Below, in pieces: positions 4,981 through 57,706 of a stretch of DNA of 64,000 nucleotides. This DNA comes from Achromobacter sp. AONIH1 (GTDB lineage: Bacteria; Pseudomonadota; Gammaproteobacteria; Burkholderiales; Burkholderiaceae_B). The translations under genes and the position numbers were made by a program. The notes beneath the pieces are model-generated. The model was not told the origin of the DNA. It ran no database searches and was given only the letters and a program-made list of their open reading frames with translations. Every line of letters starts with the position of its first letter. Position 1 is the first letter of the stretch. The stretch spans positions 6,200,001 through 6,264,000 of the forward strand of contig NZ_CP026124.1 of the NCBI RefSeq assembly GCF_002902905.1. The letters are read 5' to 3'.

Positions 4981-5402
4981 GGTACGTGCTCGACACCAAT
5001 GTCGTTTCCGAACTTCGCAAGGCAGGCGCCGGCCAGGCCAACGCCAAGGTTTCTGCATGGATAGCCAATGTGGACACGTCTGCCTTGTTCCTGTCCGCCA
5101 TCACCGTCATGGAACTCGAAATCGGGATTCAACGCGCGGAACGCAAGGATCCACGACAAGGCATCGTGCTGCGCGCCTGGATGAACGGTCGCGTGATGCC
5201 CACTTTCGCCGCCCAGGTATTGCCGATAGACGTCAAGATCGCGCGGCGCTGCGCCGCCCTGCATGTGCCGGAACGGCGCTCCGAACGGGATGCGCTGATC
5301 CCGGCGACGGCACTGGTACATGGCATGATCGTCGTCACGCTCAATGTGGCCGACTTCACGCCGCTCGGCACGCCGTTGCTGAACCCCTGGTCATCCGACT
5401 GA
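4977..5402 (+). CDS. VapC/FitB-type PIN-domain toxin (ribonuclease)
   Basis: A 141-residue PIN domain. The acidic catalytic residues are visible: D6 in MRYVLDTNVVSEL, E46 in SAITVMELEIGIQRAE, and Asp residues in the segment RRSERDALIPATAL and in NVADF. Such toxins cut tRNA or mRNA and are neutralised by the antitoxin encoded just upstream. The start codon overlaps the antitoxin stop (ATGA at 4977-4980), so translation is probably coupled. The length is typical. No second component follows; the next gene is on the other strand behind a hairpin. Confidence 0.87.
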   Translation: MRYVLDTNVVSELRKAGAGQANAKVSAWIANVDTSALFLSAITVMELEIGIQRAERKDPRQGIVLRAWMNGRVMPTFAAQVLPIDVKIARRCAALHVPERRSERDALIPATALVHGMIVVTLNVADFTPLGTPLLNPWSSD

Positions 5403-48155: not shown

Positions 48156-50867
48156 TCACCCCGCCGGCGCCAGCCGCGCGATGCGCGCGCGGATTTCCGG
48201 GACGCAGGAACCGCAGCCCGTGCCGCAGCCCAGCCCGGCCTGCAGCCCGTCCCAGTCCAGGCCGTCGGCGATGGCGGCGTCGATGGCCGCCTCGTCCACG
48301 CCCTTGCATATGCACACCATGCGCTTGCGCGCCGCCTCGATGCGCCCGGTCAGCAGCGCGGCCAGGCTGGCCGGCGCCGCATCGCCGCCGGCCCAGGCCA
48401 GCAGCGCGTCCTGCGCGCGCAGATCGCCGGTGAGCAGGAACGCCGCGGGCGCGCCGTCGGCGGTCCGCAGGCGCCGCAGCACGCCGCGCGCCGGATCGTC
48501 GAAGGCGGCGTCCGGACAACGCAATTCCAGGGCATCCAGCAGTTCCTCCAGCGCCGCGCCGTCGGGCGCGTCCGCCGCGCCCAGTTGCAGGCGCGCGCCG
48601 CCCACGGCGGCCGGCAGGACCACCGCGTAGTCGTAGCGGCCCAGCCACGGGGCCAGGCGGGCGCGCAGCGCCGGGCCGTCGCCCTGGATCCAGCCACACG
48701 CCCGCCAAGTCAGCTTGGCCGGCTCGGCCGAGATGGCCGCGTGCTTGAGTTCCGGCTGGCGGGAGATGGGATCCGCCGCGTCATGCGTCAGCGCGTTCAC
48801 GCCCAGTCCGGCCATGTAGGCGCTGCCCCAGTGCATCGGCAGGAAGGCCTGGCCGGGCCTGAGTCCCTCGTCCGGCCGCGCCGGCAGCACGATGCTGCCA
48901 CGCCGCGACTTGAGCCGGGCCAGCGCGCCGGGCGCGAGCCTGAGCCTGCGCATGTCCTCCGGATGCAGCGACACCCAGGGCTCATCCACATGCTGCGTCA
49001 GCGCGCGGGCGAGCGAGGTGCGCGCCAGCGTGTGCCAATGGTCGCGCAGCCGTCCCGTGGTCAGCTTGAGCGGGTAATGCGCCGACACGGATTCGACGGG
49101 CGGCCGGTAGCCCAGGTCATGGAAACGGGCGCGCCCGTCCGGCGTGGGATAGCGTCCATCGCCATACAGGCGCGCCCTGCCCTGCCCCGCGCGATACGGC
49201 CACTGCTGCGGACCGTCGCGCTCCAGCGTCGGGTAGTCCAGCGCGCTGTAGTCCAGATCCCGGCCCGCCGTCATCCTGGCGTGCTCGGCGTACACCTCGC
49301 TTTCATCGCGATAGCCGAACAGCGCGGCCTTGCGCGGCGCGATGCGGGCCGCCAGCCTGAGCGCAACCGCCTGCGCCAGCCGCCAGTCGGGCATGGCGTC
49401 GCCCGGCGGCGCGATGGCGGCCCGCACGCGGCTGATGCGGCGCTCCGAATTGGTCATGGTGCCGGATTTCTCCGGCCAGGTCGCGGCGGGCAGCACCAGG
49501 TCGGCATGGGCCAGCGTCTCGGCGCCGGCATAGGCTTCCTGCACGATCACGAAATCCGCGCGCGCCAAAGCGGCGCGCGCGCGGGCCTGGTCGGACATGG
49601 ACTGAGCCGGGTTGGTGGCGGCGATCCACAACACCTTGATGCGGCCCTCGCGCGCGCGCTCGAACAGCTCCAGCGCGCTGGCGCCGGGGGTTTCGGGCAA
49701 GGCGTCCACGCCCCATAGCGCGGCCGCCTCCGCGCGGTCGCCGGCGTCGGCCGGATCGCGGTGCCCCGGCAGCAGCGTGGCCATGCCGCCGGCTTCGCGC
49801 CCGCCCATGGCGTTGGGTTGGCCGGTCAGCGAGAACGGCCCCGCGCCCGGCTTGCCGATCTGGCCCGTGGCCAGGTGCAGATGGATCAGCGCGGTGTTCT
49901 TGTCGGTGCCGCTGGCCGACTGGTTCAGGCCCATGGTGTACAGCGACAAGGCGGCGTCCGCGCCGCCGAACCAGCGCGCGGCCTGGATGATGTCCCGCGC
50001 GGGAATGCCGCAGACCTCGGCGGCCGCGCCGGGCGTGAACTCATGGATGCGGGCCTTGAGCGCCTCGAAGCCCGAGGTATGGGCTCGGATGTAGTCCTGG
50101 TCGACCAGCCCTTCCCACACCATCACGTTCAGCATGGCGTGGAACAGCGCCACGTCCGAGCCCGGCGTCAGCGGCAGGTGCAGGTCGGCGCCAGAGGCCG
50201 TGTCGGTGCGGCGCGGATCGACCACGATGAGCTTCATGCCGGGCCGGCGCGCGCGGGCGGCTTCGAGCCGGCGGAACAACACCGGATGGGCATAGGCCAT
50301 GTTGGACCCGGCGATCAGCACCGTGTCGGCCAATTCCAGGTCCTCGTAGCAGGCGGGCGGCGCGTCGGCGCCCAGCGTGCGCTTGTAGCCCGACACCGCG
50401 CTGGACATGCAGAGCCGCGAATTGGTGTCGATGTTGTTGGTGCCGACCAGCGCCCGCGCCAGCTTGTTGAAGACCGCATAATCCTCGGTCAGCAGCTGGC
50501 CGGACAGGTAGAAGCCGACAGAATCCGGCCCGTGCCGGACGATGGCGTCGGCCAGCCGGTCGGCAGCGATGTCCAGCGCCTGGTCCAGCCCGACCGACTT
50601 GCGCGGCTCGTCCTTGCCCGCGCGCCAGGACGCGGCGAGCACGCGCGCATGATCGGCGCGGACCGTGTCGGCCAGGGCCAGGCCCTTGCTGCACAGCCGG
50701 CCGTGGTTGGCGGGGTGGCTGTCGTCGCCGCGCACCGCCAGCACCGCGCCCTGGCTGACCCGCACGCGCACGCCGCAGCCCGTGCCGCAGTAGCAGCACA
50801 CGCTGGCTACCTCCGCGCCCTCGTCCCGCGCCGGATGGATGCTGACCGGAATCGCCGCCGCGTCCAT
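48156..50867 (-). CDS. nasA: Assimilatory nitrate reductase, molybdopterin catalytic subunit with C-terminal [2Fe-2S] domain
   Basis: A 903-residue cytoplasmic molybdoenzyme that reduces nitrate to nitrite. The N-terminal [4Fe-4S] site is CCYCGTGCGVRV with a later CSKG. The molybdopterin domains include SRLCMSSAVSGYKRTLGADA (active-site Cys), GSNMAYAHPVLFRR, NQSASGTDKNTALIHLHLAT and the dinucleotide-binding C-terminal GRLRDHWHT region. A BFD-type [2Fe-2S] domain follows at ~850-895 (VCICKGVDEAAID, then CGTGCGSCVPEIR), typical of NasA enzymes that accept electrons without a separate small subunit. It is the last gene of nrtABD-nirBD-nasA; its start is 2 bases past the nirD stop. Confidence 0.93.
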   Translation of the reverse strand: MDAAAIPVSIHPARDEGAEVASVCCYCGTGCGVRVRVSQGAVLAVRGDDSHPANHGRLCSKGLALADTVRADHARVLAASWRAGKDEPRKSVGLDQALDIAADRLADAIVRHGPDSVGFYLSGQLLTEDYAVFNKLARALVGTNNIDTNSRLCMSSAVSGYKRTLGADAPPACYEDLELADTVLIAGSNMAYAHPVLFRRLEAARARRPGMKLIVVDPRRTDTASGADLHLPLTPGSDVALFHAMLNVMVWEGLVDQDYIRAHTSGFEALKARIHEFTPGAAAEVCGIPARDIIQAARWFGGADAALSLYTMGLNQSASGTDKNTALIHLHLATGQIGKPGAGPFSLTGQPNAMGGREAGGMATLLPGHRDPADAGDRAEAAALWGVDALPETPGASALELFERAREGRIKVLWIAATNPAQSMSDQARARAALARADFVIVQEAYAGAETLAHADLVLPAATWPEKSGTMTNSERRISRVRAAIAPPGDAMPDWRLAQAVALRLAARIAPRKAALFGYRDESEVYAEHARMTAGRDLDYSALDYPTLERDGPQQWPYRAGQGRARLYGDGRYPTPDGRARFHDLGYRPPVESVSAHYPLKLTTGRLRDHWHTLARTSLARALTQHVDEPWVSLHPEDMRRLRLAPGALARLKSRRGSIVLPARPDEGLRPGQAFLPMHWGSAYMAGLGVNALTHDAADPISRQPELKHAAISAEPAKLTWRACGWIQGDGPALRARLAPWLGRYDYAVVLPAAVGGARLQLGAADAPDGAALEELLDALELRCPDAAFDDPARGVLRRLRTADGAPAAFLLTGDLRAQDALLAWAGGDAAPASLAALLTGRIEAARKRMVCICKGVDEAAIDAAIADGLDWDGLQAGLGCGTGCGSCVPEIRARIARLAPAG

Positions 50868-50869
50868 GG

Positions 50870-51214
50870 CTAATCCAGGTCCAGGCTGACCACGCCGGCC
50901 TCGACCCGGACAGCGACCGCCCGGGCGCAGCCCACGTCGGGCGCCTGCGCCTGGCCGCTGTCCAGGTCGATTACCCAGTTGTGCAAGGGGCAGGTGACCG
51001 AACGGCCGTGCACCAGGCCGGCCGACAAGGGACCGCCCTTATGGGGGCAGCGGTCGATCAGGGCGAACACCTCGTCGCCATGGCTGCGAAACACGGCGAT
51101 GTCCTCGCGGCCGGGACGGCGCACGATGCGGGCGCCCTGCGGCGGAATGTCCTCGACCCGGCAGATCTCGGACCAGTTTTGCGTGATGGTGGCGGTTGTC
51201 ATAGCGGCGCTCAT
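50870..51214 (-). CDS. nirD: Nitrite reductase small subunit NirD (Rieske-type)
   Basis: A 114-residue Rieske [2Fe-2S] protein: CPHKGGPLSAG supplies the first Cys-x-His pair and TCPLHNWVIDLDSG the second. NirD partners NirB to reduce nitrite to ammonium with NADH. The start at 51214 overlaps the nirB stop (ATGA); an ATG four codons later (51202) is also possible. Position and size match the nirBD pair. Confidence 0.93.
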   Translation of the reverse strand: MSAAMTTATITQNWSEICRVEDIPPQGARIVRRPGREDIAVFRSHGDEVFALIDRCPHKGGPLSAGLVHGRSVTCPLHNWVIDLDSGQAQAPDVGCARAVAVRVEAGVVSLDLD

Positions 51215-53646
51215 GCGGAAAGGATCTCGAACTCGCGCGCGGCGGGCGCGCCCGCCGTTCTCTCGCGCCAGGGATCGGACTCGAAGGACAGGGCGAAGCG
51301 CAGCCGCGCGTACAGGAGCTTGCGGTTTTCCGGGTCCTCGACCACCTGCCGCCTGGCGTGCTCCAGGCCGACGCGGGCCAGATAGTGCACCGTGCGTTCC
51401 AGGTAGAAGGCTTCCTCCCGATAGAGCTGCAGGAACGCGCCGGCATACTCCAGCACCTCGTCCTGCGTCTGCACCTTGACGAAGAACTGGGCCACCTCGG
51501 TCTTGATGCCGCCGTTGCCGCCCACGTACAGCTCCCAGCCCGACTCCACCGCGATGATGCCCACGTCCTTGATGCCCGATTCGGCGCAGTTGCGCGGGCA
51601 GCCCGACACCGCCAGCTTGACCTTGTGCGGACTCCACATGCCCACCAGGTCCTTCTCCAGCGCGATGCCCATGCCCGTCGAATCCTGCGTGCCGAAGCGG
51701 CAGAACTCGCTGCCGACGCAGGTCTTCACGGTGCGCAGGCTCTTGCCGTAGGCATGGCCCGAGGGCATGTCCAGGTCCTGCCAGACCTTGGGCAGGTCTT
51801 CCTTGCGCACGCCCAGCAGGTCGATGCGCTGCCCGCCCGTCACCTTCACCATGGGGATCGCGTACTTGTCCGCCACGTCGGCGATGCGGCGCAGCTCGGC
51901 CGCGTTGGTCACGCCGCCCCACATGCGCGGCACCACGGAATAGGTGCCGTCCTTCTGGATGTTGGCGTGCATGCGCTCGTTGGCCAGCCGGGACTGGCTG
52001 TCGTCGCGCGCCTCGCCCGGCCAGGTGGACAGCAGGTAGTAATTGATGGCGGGACGGCAGGTCGCGCAGCCGTCCGGCGTGCGCCATTCCATGAAGGCCA
52101 TCACATCGGCCACGCGGGTCAGGTGATGCTCGCGGATGGCGCGGCGCAGCTCGCCGTGGGTATGCGAGGTGCAGCCGCACACCGGCTTTTCCGAGCGGGG
52201 CTTCACGTCCGCCGCGCCGCCCACGCAGTTGATCAGGATCTGCTCGACCAGCCCCGTGCAGGAGCCGCAGGAGCTGGCCGCCTTGGTGTGTTTCTTGATC
52301 TCGTCCACCGTGAACAGGCCCTGCTCGCGGATGGCCTTGACGATAGTGCCCTTGCAGACGCCGTTGCAGCCGCATACTTCGGCGCTGTCCGCCATGCCGG
52401 CGGCACGGCTCTCGCCCGCGTGACCGGTATCGCCCACGGCGTGCTCGCCGAACATCAGCTGGTCGCGCAGCGCGCCGATCTCCTTGCCCTCTCGGATCAG
52501 CCGGAAATACCAGGCGCCGTCGGCCGTGTCGCCATACAGGCAGGCGCCCACCAGACGGTCGCCCTGGATCACCAGCTTCTTGTAGACGCCGGCCGAGGGA
52601 TCGGCCAGCGTGATCGCCTCGGTCAATCCGTCGCCCACGAAATCGCCGGCCGAGAACACGTCGATGCCGGTCACCTTGAGTTTGGTGGACGTGACGCTGC
52701 CCTCGTAGCGCCCGATGCCATGCAGCGCCAGATGGTTGGCGGCCACCTTGGCCTGCTCGAACAGCGGCGCGACCAGGCCGTAGGCCATGCCCCGGTGCCT
52801 GACGCATTCGCCCACGGCATAGATGCGGGGATCGTAGGTCTGCAGCGTGTCGCTCACCACCACGCCCCGGTCCACATGCAGGCCGCAGCTTTCGGCCAGC
52901 TCGGTGTTGGGCCGGATGCCCACGGCCATCACCACCAGGTCCGCGGCGATCTCCTCGCCATCGGCGAAGCGCAGCGCGCGCACCCGGCCGTCATCGCCCG
53001 CCAGGATCGCCTGCGTCTGACGCTGCATCAGGAAGCGCAGTCCCCGCGCCTCCAGGCTCTGCCGCAGCAGGCCGGCGGCCGCGCCGTCGAGCTGGCGATC
53101 CAGCAGCGCTTCGCCCAGGTGCACCACGGACACGTCCATGCCGCGCGCGGCCAGGCCATTAGCCGCTTCCAGGCCCAGCAGGCCGCCGCCGATCACCACG
53201 GCATGGCGGTAGCGCGCGGCCGCGTCGATCATCAGGTTGACGTCGCGGATATCGCGGAACGTGACCACGCCGTCCAGCTCGCATCCCGGCACCGGCAGCA
53301 TGAACGGATTCGATCCGGTCGCCAGCAGCAGGCGGTCATAGGGCAGCGTGGCGCCATCGTCGAGCTGCGCGATGCGCCGCGCCCGGTTCAGGCCCGTGAC
53401 CTTGCGGCCCAGCAGCAGCCGGATGCCGTTCGACGCGTACCAGTCCTCGCGGTTGAGGATGATGTCGTCCAGCGTCTGCTCGCCGGTCAGCACCGGCGAC
53501 AGCAGGATGCGGTTGTAGTTGACGTGCGGCTCGGCGCCGATCACGGTGATGTCGTACAGGTCGGGCGCCAGTTTCAGCAGTTCCTCGACCGCGCGGATGC
53601 CGGCCATGCCGTTGCCCACCACCACCAACTTCTGTTTCTCTTGCAT
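51211..53646 (-). CDS. nirB: NADH-dependent nitrite reductase large subunit NirB
   Basis: An 811-residue enzyme. An N-terminal FAD/NADH domain (LVVVGNGMAGIRAVEELL, then the second Gly-rich AVVIGGGLLGLEAANGLAAR) is followed by a BFD-like [2Fe-2S] site (CGCNGVCKGTIVKAI). The siroheme/[4Fe-4S] domain has CVGSEFCRFGTQDST and SGCPRNCAESGIKDVG as the Cys-x5-Cys and Cys-x3-Cys halves. It carries out six-electron reduction of nitrite to ammonium in the cytoplasm. The siroheme comes from CysG, encoded just beyond nasT. It lies 33 bases after nrtD. Confidence 0.96.
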   Translation of the reverse strand: MQEKQKLVVVGNGMAGIRAVEELLKLAPDLYDITVIGAEPHVNYNRILLSPVLTGEQTLDDIILNREDWYASNGIRLLLGRKVTGLNRARRIAQLDDGATLPYDRLLLATGSNPFMLPVPGCELDGVVTFRDIRDVNLMIDAAARYRHAVVIGGGLLGLEAANGLAARGMDVSVVHLGEALLDRQLDGAAAGLLRQSLEARGLRFLMQRQTQAILAGDDGRVRALRFADGEEIAADLVVMAVGIRPNTELAESCGLHVDRGVVVSDTLQTYDPRIYAVGECVRHRGMAYGLVAPLFEQAKVAANHLALHGIGRYEGSVTSTKLKVTGIDVFSAGDFVGDGLTEAITLADPSAGVYKKLVIQGDRLVGACLYGDTADGAWYFRLIREGKEIGALRDQLMFGEHAVGDTGHAGESRAAGMADSAEVCGCNGVCKGTIVKAIREQGLFTVDEIKKHTKAASSCGSCTGLVEQILINCVGGAADVKPRSEKPVCGCTSHTHGELRRAIREHHLTRVADVMAFMEWRTPDGCATCRPAINYYLLSTWPGEARDDSQSRLANERMHANIQKDGTYSVVPRMWGGVTNAAELRRIADVADKYAIPMVKVTGGQRIDLLGVRKEDLPKVWQDLDMPSGHAYGKSLRTVKTCVGSEFCRFGTQDSTGMGIALEKDLVGMWSPHKVKLAVSGCPRNCAESGIKDVGIIAVESGWELYVGGNGGIKTEVAQFFVKVQTQDEVLEYAGAFLQLYREEAFYLERTVHYLARVGLEHARRQVVEDPENRKLLYARLRFALSFESDPWRERTAGAPAAREFEILSA

Positions 53647-53679: not shown

Positions 53680-54555
53680 TCAGGCCACGGCCCGCGAGGC
53701 TCCGGCGTCGTCCGGCGCGCCGCCCTCGGCCCTGCCGGCCTGGACGCCGGGCTCGCGAGCCGCGGCGATCTCCGGATTGCCATGGCGGCGGTGCAGGAAG
53801 TCCACCACCGCGGCGCGGCAGGCGAGGTAGACCGCGTCATTGGCCAGCGCCACGCGGTCGCGCGGTCGCGCCAGCGGCACGGCCAGGATCTCGCCGATGG
53901 TGGCGGCCGGCCCGTTGCCCAGCATGACGATGCGGTCCGACAGCAGCACGGCCTCGTCCACGTCGTGCGTGACCATGATGGTGGTGGTGCGCGTCTTGGC
54001 CACGATCCTGAGCAGCTCGTCCTGCAGATGCGCGCGCGTCAGCGCGTCCAGCGCGCCGAACGGCTCGTCCATCAGCAGCACGCCCGGCTCGATCGCCAGC
54101 GCCCGCGCGATGCCCACGCGCTGCTTCATGCCGCCGGATATCTCGCGCGGCAGCTTGTTCTGCGCGGGCAGCAGTCCCACCAGTTCCAGCGCCGCGCGCG
54201 TGCGCTCGGCCAGCCGGGCGCGGCTTTCGCTGCCGCCGAACACACGCTCCACCGCCAGGTGCACGTTCTGGAAGCAGGTCAGCCAGGGCAGCAGGGAATG
54301 GTTCTGGAACACCACCGCGCGGTCGGGCCCGGGTCCGGTGATCTCGCGCTCGGCGCACAGCAGCACGCCGGTGGTGGGGCGCGTCAGGCCGGCGATCAGG
54401 TTCAGCAGCGTGGACTTGCCGCAGCCCGAATGCCCGATCAGCGTGATGAACTCGCCCTGGTCCACGGTCAGGTCGATATCGCGCAGGGCCACGAAATCGC
54501 CCTTGCGCGTGGCGAAGGTCTGGCCCACGCGTTCTATGCGTACATGCTTCTTCAT
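53680..54555 (-). CDS. nrtD: Nitrate ABC transporter ATP-binding protein (NrtD/NasD-type)
   Basis: A 291-residue ABC ATPase: Walker A GHSGCGKST, Q-loop VFQNHSLLPWL, signature ISGGMKQRVGIARAL, Walker B VLLMDEPFGALDALTRA and the H-loop VTHDVDEAVLLSDRI. The family of nitrate/sulfonate/taurine transporters is clear; nitrate is assigned from the flanking nrtA and nirB genes. The C-terminal ~25 residues are a disordered extension. It starts 5 bases after nrtB. Confidence 0.92.
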   Translation of the reverse strand: MKKHVRIERVGQTFATRKGDFVALRDIDLTVDQGEFITLIGHSGCGKSTLLNLIAGLTRPTTGVLLCAEREITGPGPDRAVVFQNHSLLPWLTCFQNVHLAVERVFGGSESRARLAERTRAALELVGLLPAQNKLPREISGGMKQRVGIARALAIEPGVLLMDEPFGALDALTRAHLQDELLRIVAKTRTTTIMVTHDVDEAVLLSDRIVMLGNGPAATIGEILAVPLARPRDRVALANDAVYLACRAAVVDFLHRRHGNPEIAAAREPGVQAGRAEGGAPDDAGASRAVA

Positions 54556-54559
54556 GCGG

Positions 54560-55393
54560 CTACTCCTCGGCGTAGGTAAAACGGCGCGCCAGCGCGACCA
54601 GCAGCGTTTCCAGCGCCAGCCCCACGATGCCGATCACGAAAATGGCGATGACGATGTGCTCGACCTTCAGGTTGTTCCATTCGTCCCATAGCCAGAAGCC
54701 GATGCCGGTGCCGCCGGTCAGCATCTCGGCCGCCACGATCACCAGCCAGGCCGTGCCGATGGACAACCGCACGCCGGTCAGCACATAGGGCAGCACCGCC
54801 GGCAGCAATACCTTGGTGACGACCTTCCATTCCGACAGATTCAGCACGCGCGCCACGTTCAGGTAGTCCTGCGGCACGCGCGTCACCCCAACGGCGGTAT
54901 TGACGATCATGGGCCAGATGGAACAGATGAAGATCGCCCAGATGGCGGCCGGATTGGCGGCCTTGAACAGCAACAGGCCCAGCGGCAGCCAGGCCAGCGG
55001 CGACACCGGCCGCAGCAGGCTGACGATGGGCGAGAACATGGCGCGCAGCGCGGCATAGCGACCGATGGCGAAGCCCGCCGGTATGCCCACGATGGCGGCC
55101 AGCCCGAAGCCGACGGCCACTCGCTGCAGCGAGGCCAGCAGGTTCCAGCCTATGCCCTTGTCGTTGGGCCCGTTGTCGTAGAAAGGATCGGCGAACAGCG
55201 CCTGGGCCGCGTGCCAGGTGACGCCGGGCGTGGGAATCTCGGGAATGCCCATGGCCACCGCCTGCCATGCCAGCACGAACACCGCGAATCCAGCCACCGG
55301 CCCGGCCGCGGCCTTGAGCAGGCCCTCGACGCGGTCGCGCCAGAAGGCGCCCGTCCGGCCCGCGCCCGCCATGGAGGAGATCACATTGAACAT
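54560..55393 (-). CDS. nrtB: Nitrate ABC transporter permease (NrtB-type)
   Basis: A 277-residue inner-membrane permease with about six spans, starting with GPVAGFAVFVLAWQAVAMGI. The EAA-loop-like coupling helix is VARVLNLSEWKVVTKVLLPA, followed by LPYVLTGVRLSIGTAWLVIV. The ATG at 55393 was chosen because GAGAAGGAA precedes it; the frame is open upstream into nrtA, but those codons are a shadow. It forms the channel of NrtABD for nitrate or nitrite uptake. It lies 23 bases after nrtA. Confidence 0.92.
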   Translation of the reverse strand: MFNVISSMAGAGRTGAFWRDRVEGLLKAAAGPVAGFAVFVLAWQAVAMGIPEIPTPGVTWHAAQALFADPFYDNGPNDKGIGWNLLASLQRVAVGFGLAAIVGIPAGFAIGRYAALRAMFSPIVSLLRPVSPLAWLPLGLLLFKAANPAAIWAIFICSIWPMIVNTAVGVTRVPQDYLNVARVLNLSEWKVVTKVLLPAVLPYVLTGVRLSIGTAWLVIVAAEMLTGGTGIGFWLWDEWNNLKVEHIVIAIFVIGIVGLALETLLVALARRFTYAEE

Positions 55394-55416: not shown

Positions 55417-56718
55417 TCAGGCCTTGACCTTGAAGCCGTCGGCATAGGCCGCCGGATCGCTGCCGTCCCAGGCCACGCCGTCGACCAGCGTGGACTTGCG
55501 CATCTCGCCGGCGGGCAGCGCCACGCCGGCGGCCTGCGCCGCCTGGCGGTACACGTCGATGCGATTGATCTGCCGGGCCACGGCCAGGTAGTCGGGATGC
55601 GTCTTGAGCAATCCCCAGCGCTTGTGCTGTGTCAGGAACCACATGCCGTCGCTAAGGTAGGGGAAGTTGGCCGCGCCATCGGCATGAAAGCGCATGGCAT
55701 GCGGATCGCTCCAGGACTTGCCCAGGCCGTCCTCGTAGCGGCCCTGCATGCGGCCGACGATGCCGCCCGCGTCGGTATTGACGTAGGACTTGGCGGCGAT
55801 GGTCTCGGCGGTCTTCTGGCGATTGGCCTCGGAAGCGTCGATCCACTTGCCCGCCTCCAGCACCGCAGCCGTGACGGCCCGCGCCGTGTTGGGATGGCGC
55901 GCCACGAACTCGGCGCTGGCGCCCAGCACCTTTTCGGGATGATCGGCCCAGATGCCCTGCGTCGTGATGGCGGTGAAGCCGATCTTGTCCATGATCGCGC
56001 GCGCGCCCCAGGGCTCGCCGACGCAGAAGCCGTCCATGTTGCCCACACGCATGTTGGCGACCATCTGCGGCGGCGGCACGGTGATGGCCTTGGCGTCGCG
56101 CATCGGATCGATGCCATGCGCCGCCAGCCAGTAATACAGCCACATGGCGTGGGTGCCTGTGGGAAAGGTCTGGGCGAAGGTGTATTCGCGCTTGTCGCTG
56201 GCCATCAGCCTGGCCAGCGACTCGCCGTCGCGCGCGCCAGCCTGCAACAGCTTGTTGGACAGGGTGATCGCCTGGCCATTCTGGTTCAGCCCCATAAGCA
56301 CCGCCATGTCCTTGCGCGGACCGCCGATGCCCAGGTGCACGCCGTAGACCAACCCATACAGCACATGAGCGAAATCCAGCTCGCCGTTCATGAGCTTGTC
56401 CCGCACGCTGGCCCAGGAAGCCTCCTTGGACAGCGTGATGGTGACGCCGTGCTTCTTGTCCAGGCCCAGCGCCGAGGCCATCACCACGGACGCGCAATCC
56501 GTCAGCGGGATGAAGCCGATCTTCACCTCGGTCTTTTCCGGCGCATCGGTGCCGGCCGCCCAGGCGCCGGCTCGCACCAGCGGATCGACCAGGGACAACA
56601 GGCCCGCGCCCGTCGCCGCGCGCGCGGCCCCCGCGAGCCAGCTGCGGCGTCCGGCATCGGCGCCATCGCGCGGGTCGGGTTTCGGGGCGTGTTCCGAACG
56701 GTCATGGTGTGACGACAT
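55417..56718 (-). CDS. nrtA: Nitrate ABC transporter substrate-binding protein (NrtA-type)
   Basis: A 433-residue CmpA/NrtA-family binding protein. The N-terminus has a twin-arginine-like signal, GRRSWLAGAARAATGAGLLS, so it is periplasmic. The ligand domain shows VKIGFIPLTDCASVVMASAL, FAHVLYGLVYGVHLGIG, QTFPTGTHAMWLYYWLAAHG and MDGFCVGEPWGARAI. Two ATGs lie in front; the one at 56718 was chosen because AGGAG sits 8 bases before it, while 56724 would leave only 2 bases. It is first in the nitrate operon, behind an attenuator leader. Related cytoplasmic NasS proteins lack a signal peptide, so this one is not NasS. Confidence 0.92.
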   Translation of the reverse strand: MSSHHDRSEHAPKPDPRDGADAGRRSWLAGAARAATGAGLLSLVDPLVRAGAWAAGTDAPEKTEVKIGFIPLTDCASVVMASALGLDKKHGVTITLSKEASWASVRDKLMNGELDFAHVLYGLVYGVHLGIGGPRKDMAVLMGLNQNGQAITLSNKLLQAGARDGESLARLMASDKREYTFAQTFPTGTHAMWLYYWLAAHGIDPMRDAKAITVPPPQMVANMRVGNMDGFCVGEPWGARAIMDKIGFTAITTQGIWADHPEKVLGASAEFVARHPNTARAVTAAVLEAGKWIDASEANRQKTAETIAAKSYVNTDAGGIVGRMQGRYEDGLGKSWSDPHAMRFHADGAANFPYLSDGMWFLTQHKRWGLLKTHPDYLAVARQINRIDVYRQAAQAAGVALPAGEMRKSTLVDGVAWDGSDPAAYADGFKVKA

Positions 56719-56734
56719 GGGCATGGCTCCTGGC

Positions 56735-56779
56735 AAAAAAAACGCCCCGCCCGCCACGGACCGGATCCGGTGGCGGGCG
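56735..56779 (-). terminator. Intrinsic terminator in the nrtA leader (attenuator)
   Basis: On the minus strand a perfect 10-bp stem, CGCCCGCCAC with GTGGCGGGCG (arms 56770-56779 and 56748-56757), is followed by GGGCG and eight U residues (56735-56742). It stands between the sigma-54 promoter and the nrtA ribosome binding site (AGGAG), so transcription would stop before nrtA unless antitermination occurs. Confidence 0.9.
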
Positions 56780-56843
56780 AGACGTCGTTGTCCCTGGCCG
56801 CGAATGCGCGGCGTTCAGCGTGGGCGACCGCCGTTGGCCGCCA
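56779..56843 (-). promoter_or_regulatory. Two-hairpin ANTAR (NasT) target leader RNA
   Basis: P1 at 56823-56842 is GGCGGCC-AACGGC-GGTCGCC, a 7-bp stem with one G-U pair. P2 at 56779-56794 is GGGAC-AACGAC-GTCTC, a 5-bp stem with one G-U pair. Both loops have six bases with A at position 1 and G at position 4, the published recognition rule for ANTAR proteins. A small GCCGCG-CATT-CGCGGC hairpin lies between them. The last base of P2 is the first base of the terminator stem, so P2 and the terminator compete at that base. NasT is encoded divergently next door. Confidence 0.85.
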
Positions 56844-56851
56844 CTACCCCA

Positions 56852-56870
56852 CAAGCAAGCGCCGTGCCAA
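56852..56870 (-). promoter_or_regulatory. Sigma-54 (-24/-12) promoter of the nrtABD-nirBD-nasA operon
   Basis: Minus-strand TTGGCAC-GGCGC-TTGCTT matches the RpoN consensus TGGCAC-N5-TTGCW perfectly. The -12 C is at 56855, which predicts transcription from about 56843, one base before hairpin P1 of the leader. Sigma-54 dependence implies an activator such as NtrC. Confidence 0.88.
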
Positions 56871-57124: not shown

Positions 57125-57706
57125 ATGCTGAAAGTCATGCTGCTCAACGATGGCGAGGGACGCGCGGCGTCGCTGCGGCAGACGCTGGCGGCCGCGGGCG
57201 TGCGCGTCGTGGCCGAGGCCGCGCCGGGCATGGATCTGGCCGCCGCGATCGAAGACGCCGCTCCCGATGTGGTGCTGATCGACAGCGACGCGCCCGGTCG
57301 CGACACGCTGGAATATGTCTGCGTGGCCAGCGAGCACAGCGACCGGCCGGTGGTGATGTTCACCGGCGACGGCACGCGCGCGGCCATCCGCGAGGCGTTG
57401 CAGGCGGGCGTGGCCGCCTACGTGGTCGGGGACGTCCCCGCCGCCCGCATCGAAAGCCTGCTGACCGTGGCGATCGAACGCTTCGCCGTGGAGAAGTCCC
57501 GGCGCGAGGCGCTGCGCGAAGCCAAGCTTCGGCTGGCGGACAGGCAATGGGTGGAAAAAGCCAAGGGCATCCTGATGCAGACCCGCTCAATTTCCGAGGA
57601 CGAGGCCCACCGGCTGTTGCGCGAACGCGCCATGCAGGCCCAGAAGCGCCTGGGCGAGGTGGCGCGCGAGGTCGTTGAGTTCAGTCAATGGCTGGGCCCG
57701 GGCTGA
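57125..57706 (+). CDS. nasT: Nitrate-responsive ANTAR antiterminator NasT
   Basis: A 193-residue two-domain regulator. Residues 1-115 are a receiver-like domain with the Asp at position 53 (DVVLIDSDAPGRD). The acidic pocket is reduced (LLNDGE) and the usual Lys near YVVGD is missing, so phosphorylation is doubtful. Residues ~130-185 are an ANTAR domain (RQWVEKAKGILMQTRSISED with EAHRLLRERA). NasT binds double-hexaloop RNA hairpins and prevents termination; exactly such a leader lies in front of nrtA, transcribed the other way. The partner sensor NasS, usually encoded beside nasT, is absent. The ATG at 57125 begins the first beta strand. Confidence 0.92.
   Translation: MLKVMLLNDGEGRAASLRQTLAAAGVRVVAEAAPGMDLAAAIEDAAPDVVLIDSDAPGRDTLEYVCVASEHSDRPVVMFTGDGTRAAIREALQAGVAAYVVGDVPAARIESLLTVAIERFAVEKSRREALREAKLRLADRQWVEKAKGILMQTRSISEDEAHRLLRERAMQAQKRLGEVAREVVEFSQWLGPG

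Follow-up and report, generated by a model that had tools for sequence, protein, structure and literature searches.

The window, the whole 64,000-nucleotide stretch of Achromobacter sp. AONIH1 that was analyzed, carries a nitrate assimilation operon (nrtABC-nirBD-nasA) on its minus strand and a divergently transcribed nasT gene. The genes at this locus are as follows.

55417..56718, minus strand: nrtA, encoding a nitrate-binding protein that by eye has a twin-arginine signal (the first ATG lies at 56724; the start at 56718 is better spaced from the Shine-Dalgarno sequence)
54560..55393, minus strand: nrtB permease (TIGR01183 above cut-off; start placed from the frame)
53680..54555, minus strand: nrtC/D ATPase (TIGR01184 above cut-off)
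51211..53646, minus strand: nirB, nitrite reductase large subunit (TIGR02374 above cut-off)
ending at 50870, minus strand: nirD-like Rieske frame after nirB (frame reading only)
48156..50867, minus strand: assimilatory nitrate reductase-like molybdoprotein (best models Fdh-alpha, NasA and NasC, all below cut-off)
57125..57706, plus strand: nasT, divergent, encoding a REC-ANTAR protein (PF03861, 63.1 bits; alignment)

The divergent nasT had been named in an earlier reading of this DNA made from the letters alone (the sequence-only reading), and the match to PF03861 bears this out. Among the NasT loci listed, the closest relative of the encoded protein is from Achromobacter aegrifaciens (86% identical), and the leader of that species has the same layout as the one described here. 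The region between nasT and nrtA contains the following elements.

56853..56870, minus strand: sigma54 -24/-12 promoter, TTGGCACGGCGCTTGCTT (sequence and pattern search)
56823..56842, minus strand: hairpin P1, GGCGGCC-AACGGC-GGUCGCC, 7 bp, -12.5 kcal/mol, hexaloop AACGGC (A1, G4)
56822-56795, minus strand: linker between P1 and P2, 28 nt
56797..56812, minus strand: middle (spacer) hairpin within the linker, GCCGCG-CAUU-CGCGGC, -9.8 kcal/mol
56779..56794, minus strand: hairpin P2, GGGAC-AACGAC-GUCUC, 5 bp including one G-U, -4.3 kcal/mol, hexaloop AACGAC (A1, G4)
56742..56785, minus strand: intrinsic terminator stem-loop, 5' arm 56785-56770 and 3' arm 56757-56742, which excludes P2 (folding)
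56735..56742, minus strand: U tract of eight U (sequence)
56727..56731, minus strand: nrtA ribosome binding site, Shine-Dalgarno AGGAG (sequence)

The promoter, which the sequence-only reading did not mention, is a perfect match to the sigma54 -24/-12 consensus, and the pattern TGGCACN5TTGCW occurs once in the window against 0.04 expected. A count of 12 bases from the C of the -12 element gives a predicted transcription start near 56843, at the base of P1. The 142-nt leader folds better than all of 200 dinucleotide shuffles (z -3.42). Both A1/G4 hexaloop hairpins claimed in the sequence-only reading were found on the minus strand by sequence and folding, as were the third hairpin between them, the eight U residues after the terminator stem and the ribosome binding site. 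In terms of the Ramesh 2012 definition of an ANTAR target RNA, the leader has two A1/G4 hexaloop hairpins with stems of 3 bp or more, joined by a variable linker, and a P2 and an intrinsic terminator that are mutually exclusive, with 7 nt and the full 3' arm of P2 in common; its genome codes for ANTAR proteins, namely NasT in the window and a second protein, which is AmiR-like. As in the NalA type of leader, a sigma54 promoter immediately precedes P1.

Two statements about the terminator required revision. The perfect 10-bp stem that had been described is present as a Watson-Crick core, which stops 5 nt before the U run, but the full stem extends from A56785 to U56742 and comprises about 16 bp, G-U pairs included. 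P2 had also been said to share only its last base with this stem; since the stem begins at A56785, it takes bases 5-6 of the P2 loop and the entire P2 3' arm, an overlap of 7 nt. The terminator region has a folding energy of -36.1 kcal/mol, compared with -29.2 kcal/mol for P2 plus the residual stem. With P2 formed, the residual stem (-24.9 kcal/mol) has its base 6 nt away from the U tract. These energies and the position of the residual stem are those of a switch as expected for such a leader.

A search of the window with the Rfam families resulted in no match at gathering thresholds. With an E-value threshold, RF03032 ("narK RNA") matched positions 56868-56779 with 38 bits (E 1.5e-5). The sequence-only reading would have counted as refuted if no covariance model scored the leader; RF03032 does score it, but below its gathering score of 43.2, and a formal placing of the leader in this family was therefore rejected. 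The 5' end of the RF03032 model, GGCaCAgcucUUGCU, reads as a sigma54 site (GGCAC-N5-TTGCU), its only annotated helix is P1 with the loop AACGGC, and its 3' end, CGACAAAGACGUCGC, left unpaired in Rfam, is able to form P2 (CGAC-AAAGAC-GUCG). The family thus reads as a sigma54 promoter followed by a putative NasT leader. It reportedly originates from Weinberg et al. 2017; in the literature searched, no mention of "narK RNA", "narK motif" or RF03032 was found. Scores at or above gathering were obtained in three of 300 genomes of the order, four of 268 genomes of the family and one of 24 named NasT loci scanned. In the window's own genus, 25 of 43 genomes have a match to RF03032, and four genomes other than that of the window score 43.6-45.0 bits. 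Elsewhere in the genome of the window, eleven equal matches of 23.3 bits lie exactly 627 bases apart near 5.48 Mb (C1:5475513-5481856), presumably in a tandem repeat, and were set aside as presumed copies of one repeat.

The distribution of RF03032 follows that of ANTAR genes. Among 300 genomes of the order, RF03032 was found at E <=0.01 in 54 and PF03861 in 148; PF03861 was present in 52 of the 54 genomes with RF03032 and in 96 of the 246 without (Fisher p 2.4e-16, a value that ignores relatedness and is too small because the genomes are related, while the direction is clear). Two A1/G4 hexaloop hairpins of at least 4 bp were present in 27 of 30 narK loci read (the best 30 of 56 places listed). 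In an alignment of 29 leaders, the covariation score was 0.587; slid pairings reached no more than 0.153. In 63 cells both sides had changed. The P1 helix covaries and the outer pairs of P2 vary together; in these seed leaders the P2 pattern itself imposed the two inner pairs (A-U, C-G) and, in part, the third, so the evidence for P2 comes from its outer pairs only.

A two-hairpin leader model, R1, has the window site in its own seed, and its score for that site (45.7 bits, E 1.7e-9 over the whole genome, with the runner-up at 25.1 bits) is for this reason no independent proof. This is the sole good R1 match in the genome, which suggests a single target operon for NasT there, nrtABC-nirBD-nasA. 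There are nine other matches (E <=1, at most 25.1 bits); the five that were read (L264-L268) lack a terminator overlapping P2, with L266 having a terminator farther on that leaves P2 free, and were therefore taken as chance. The genome's second ANTAR gene (C1:4759183-4759341), AmiR-like and by reading adjacent to an AmiC-like sensor, has none of the ten R1 matches near it.

A search with a NasT alignment gave 80 named loci (the best of at least 557). At E <=0.05, R1 gave 75 matches in 62 of these 80 loci over 0.91 Mb, with about 0.05 expected by chance at this rough E-value cut-off, and it matched 22 of the same 24 loci that were scanned with RF03032. From a different set of 147 R1 matches, 131 were passed on and 16 omitted (the weakest, second matches and duplicates of one place). 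Four of the 131 could not be parsed, and 11 of the 127 parsed leaders were dropped for their loops or terminator. The remaining 116, in which both loops have A1/G4 and the terminator overlaps P2, were kept; parsing rewarded A1/G4, so the loop counts from this step are no evidence. Two places (G178 and G082), both of the short-linker class, are counted twice among the 116, leaving genus-level counts unaffected. Of the kept leaders, 106 have a sigma54-like box; its distance upstream of the P1 loop is 32-48 nt in 83 and 56-114 nt in 23. Two Caballeronia loci have divergent NasT-type leaders roughly 320-350 bases apart (L230, 4595-4671 on the minus strand and 5015-5074 on the plus strand; L228, 4608-4695 and 5018-5084, likewise).

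The gene downstream of nasT in the window encodes a siroheme synthase rather than NasS. A search of the whole genome with the NasS of Pigmentiphaga (L240) at E <=0.001 did not find NasS, a cytosolic, nitrate-binding relative of NrtA without an export signal; the only matches were NrtA itself (443.7 bits, 54%) and a relative with 54 bits and 26%, both with twin-arginine signals by eye. Across the 43 genomes of the genus, which were covered less sharply, an NrtA-grade match (440-455 bits) was present in 33 and no second match exceeded 200 bits, while 26 hold one of 178-195 bits that is 32-35% identical. For the 80 NasT loci the search covered 6-kb flanks. Only Tat-type relatives were present in 31 of them (29 with an R1 match), 37 have at least one relative without a signal, and 12 are ambiguous; these labels come from a crude motif in stop-to-stop frames, and a few (e.g. 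L197) may be wrong. A nasT-leader-nrtA module without NasS alongside thus occurs in about 30 of the 80 sampled loci, raising the question of what informs NasT of nitrate where NasS is missing. One speculative answer, which we regard as improbable, is that NrtA, Tat-exported and presumed to fold in the cytosol first, would itself sense nitrate and hold NasT. An autoregulatory loop would then be closed by the leader before nrtA, and the module without an adjacent NasS would represent a signalling design of its own, with an ANTAR leader of the spacer-hairpin or triple-hairpin form as its output.

A second Rfam family overlaps with these leaders. RF00625, "Pseudomonas sRNA P11", matched above gathering over R1 matches at L184:10221-10356 and L186:9724-9871, and the frame behind both begins nirB-like by eye. 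The P11 consensus has, in order, a sigma54 site, a hexaloop P1, a middle hairpin, P2 (GGAC-AAAGGC-GUCC) and an overlapping terminator. A leader of the Pseudomonas nirBD operon, NalA, was reportedly described by Romeo et al. 2012. NasT is reported to bind and antiterminate this sigma54-driven leader, with inhibition by c-di-GMP (PMC12830290). P11 is probably NalA, an identity that may already be in print. One paper on inheritance in worms states that P11 regulates the nitrogen assimilation operon (PMC12080996), and NasT does not occur in the main text of that paper or of PMC10977744.

Taken as a whole, the leader in the window is very probably the 5' leader through which NasT, an ANTAR protein, controls the nrtABC-nirBD-nasA operon by antitermination. 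Observed here were the elements and how they are conserved, folding energies by which P2 and the terminator exclude each other, and the genomic association with NasT. The antitermination function proposed in the sequence-only reading is thus supported by the identity of the loops, the covariation of the helices, the co-occurrence with ANTAR genes and the 62 of 80 NasT loci, and is itself read from sequence. The RF03032 match across promoter, P1 and P2, the folding energies and the NalA precedent also speak for it. Weighing against it are the score of that match under gathering, a linker longer than EutV tolerates, the weak shuffle statistics of the spacer hairpin and the failure to find NasS in the genome of the window. 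Under nitrogen limitation, transcription would start from the sigma54 promoter, with NtrC as the likely activator. When active NasT is absent, the leader would fold into P1, the middle hairpin and the long terminator stem, and the last of these would halt the polymerase before nrtA. Active NasT would bind as a dimer and hold P1 and P2; P2 would consume the 5' base of the terminator, leaving a residual stem 6 nt off the U tract and allowing read-through. By folding up some of the linker, the middle hairpin may allow P1 and P2 to be bridged in spite of the linker's length.

If the terminated leader acted primarily as a small RNA in trans, as claimed for P11 of Pseudomonas, cis antitermination would be secondary. 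Rfam does type P11 as "Gene", and it has been reported as an active sRNA in PA14 (PMC12080996). The leader of the window, however, lies directly before the nrtA ribosome site, and its promoter, hexaloops and terminator are conserved in a manner that fits control in cis, so that we judge this explanation very unlikely. Still less credit can be given to a riboswitch, in which the RNA itself would sense nitrate or another ligand. The function of the operon and the structured leader are all that speak for it, whereas the A1/G4 hexaloop rule, the adjacency of NasT and the co-occurrence in genomes indicate a protein partner, and conservation was seen only in the promoter, hairpins and terminator.

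More weight attaches to a third explanation, which concerns one part of the NasT leader: its middle hairpin and long linker could be neutral GC-rich filler, NasT bridging any linker in the family. We give this an appreciable, though minority, chance. The linker is the unusual part of the leader. Targets of EutV have linkers of 5-12 nt, and a 14-nt linker strongly lowers antitermination (PMC3369931); an additional 20 nt abolishes it in vitro (PMC8934654), and a survey of actinobacterial ANTAR targets accepted 2-25 nt (PMC8164766). A short linker is usual but lies outside the Ramesh 2012 definition. The 28 nt here are beyond lengths that abolish EutV antitermination, which justifies the earlier statement that the linker is longer than expected for known ANTAR targets. 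Among the 116 kept leaders, the linker is 2-16 nt long in 50 (33 genera) and 19-55 nt in 66 (29 genera). With each genus represented by its median leader, 10 of 29 genera had long linkers whose stability exceeded that of 95% of their shuffles, compared with 1.45 expected (binomial p 8e-7; Fisher combined 4e-8), which argues against filler. In favor of it are the modest results of shuffling GC-rich leaders (for the spacer hairpin of the window leader alone, L001, p 0.08; median p 0.149 over its genus) and the fact that some long linkers look unfolded (L034, L127). The proposal that the spacer hairpin keeps the unpaired linker short was also tested and is unsupported, as the bases outside helices in the 29 long-linker genera were no fewer than in shuffles (median 9 vs 8.7), with 22 of the 29 genera having at most 13 such bases compared with 25 for shuffle means. 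Only the greater stability of long linkers across genera is supported.

Comparison within the genus of the window also speaks against filler. The loop-to-loop distance is 39 or 40 nt in all 24 leaders parsed from the 25 genomes with an RF03032 match. Twenty leaders have the length 40, and among them the spacer stem (columns 19-23/29-33) is 0.95-1.00 identical while the loop (columns 24-28) varies (0.45-0.80); the single departure in the 5' arm is that of the window's own leader, with the arm one column earlier. Hairpins of different sequence in the linkers of other genera of the family (L057, L045, L162, L175, L055) also tell against filler, but they may be non-homologous. On the other side, the spacer stem shows no compensatory changes within the genus, which counts against the proposed role of the hairpin.

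Several of the related leaders have three hairpins of the ANTAR type; that of the window has two and a plain spacer hairpin. In short-linker leaders with the promoter box 56-90 nt away, an extra A1/G4 hexaloop hairpin precedes P1 in 9.0 of 14 genera (genus-averaged) compared with 0.52 for shuffles, and among the 29 long-linker genera the middle hairpin itself has such a hexaloop in 5.5 versus 0.78 expected. None of the 24 leaders of the window's genus has a middle hairpin of the A1/G4 type. Examples with the third hexaloop either before P1 or between P1 and P2 are L035, L072, L020, L039, L085, L088, L103, L105, L113, L101, L114, L030 and L151. A limited literature search found no description of three-hairpin ANTAR leaders, which is no proof of novelty. 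Together, these leaders suggest that natural NasT leaders break the short-linker rule of EutV, often with a third hairpin, making the geometry of ANTAR dimer binding testable on natural variants.

The analysis links the Rfam narK family, and probably P11 as well, through a shared mechanism in which a sigma54 promoter precedes a terminator under NasT control. P11 has been described as an sRNA and is the PA14 RNA of the disputed work on inheritance in worms. By its sequence, the leader system of the window appears to be of a known kind, with the same architecture as Rfam P11 and a fit to the published NalA leader. It shares with RF03032 the sigma54 site (GGCAC-N5-TTGCU), the CCAACGGCGG hairpin and GACAAAGACGUC (P2), and differs by a 22-nt insertion at the linker, by the pairing of P1 alone in Rfam and by its score under gathering. 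With Pseudomonas NalA it would have in common a sigma54/NtrC promoter, NasT-dependent antitermination and a nitrogen assimilation operon (PMC12830290, PMC9196836) and, if NalA is P11, as the nirB-like frames behind both matches suggest, also the order of P1, middle hairpin, P2 and terminator. Unlike NalA, it stands before nrtA of an ABC transporter operon with nasT divergent, NasS was not found, and the sequence of its spacer hairpin is another. The EutV targets of Enterococcus likewise have two A1/G4 hexaloops and a P2 overlapping the terminator (PMC3369931), with linkers of 5-12 nt in contrast to the 28-nt, hairpin-containing linker and the sigma54 promoter found here. The nasF leader of Klebsiella is also subject to nitrate-responsive ANTAR antitermination (PMC3369931), by NasR, which has its own nitrate-sensing NIT domain where NasT has a receiver domain.
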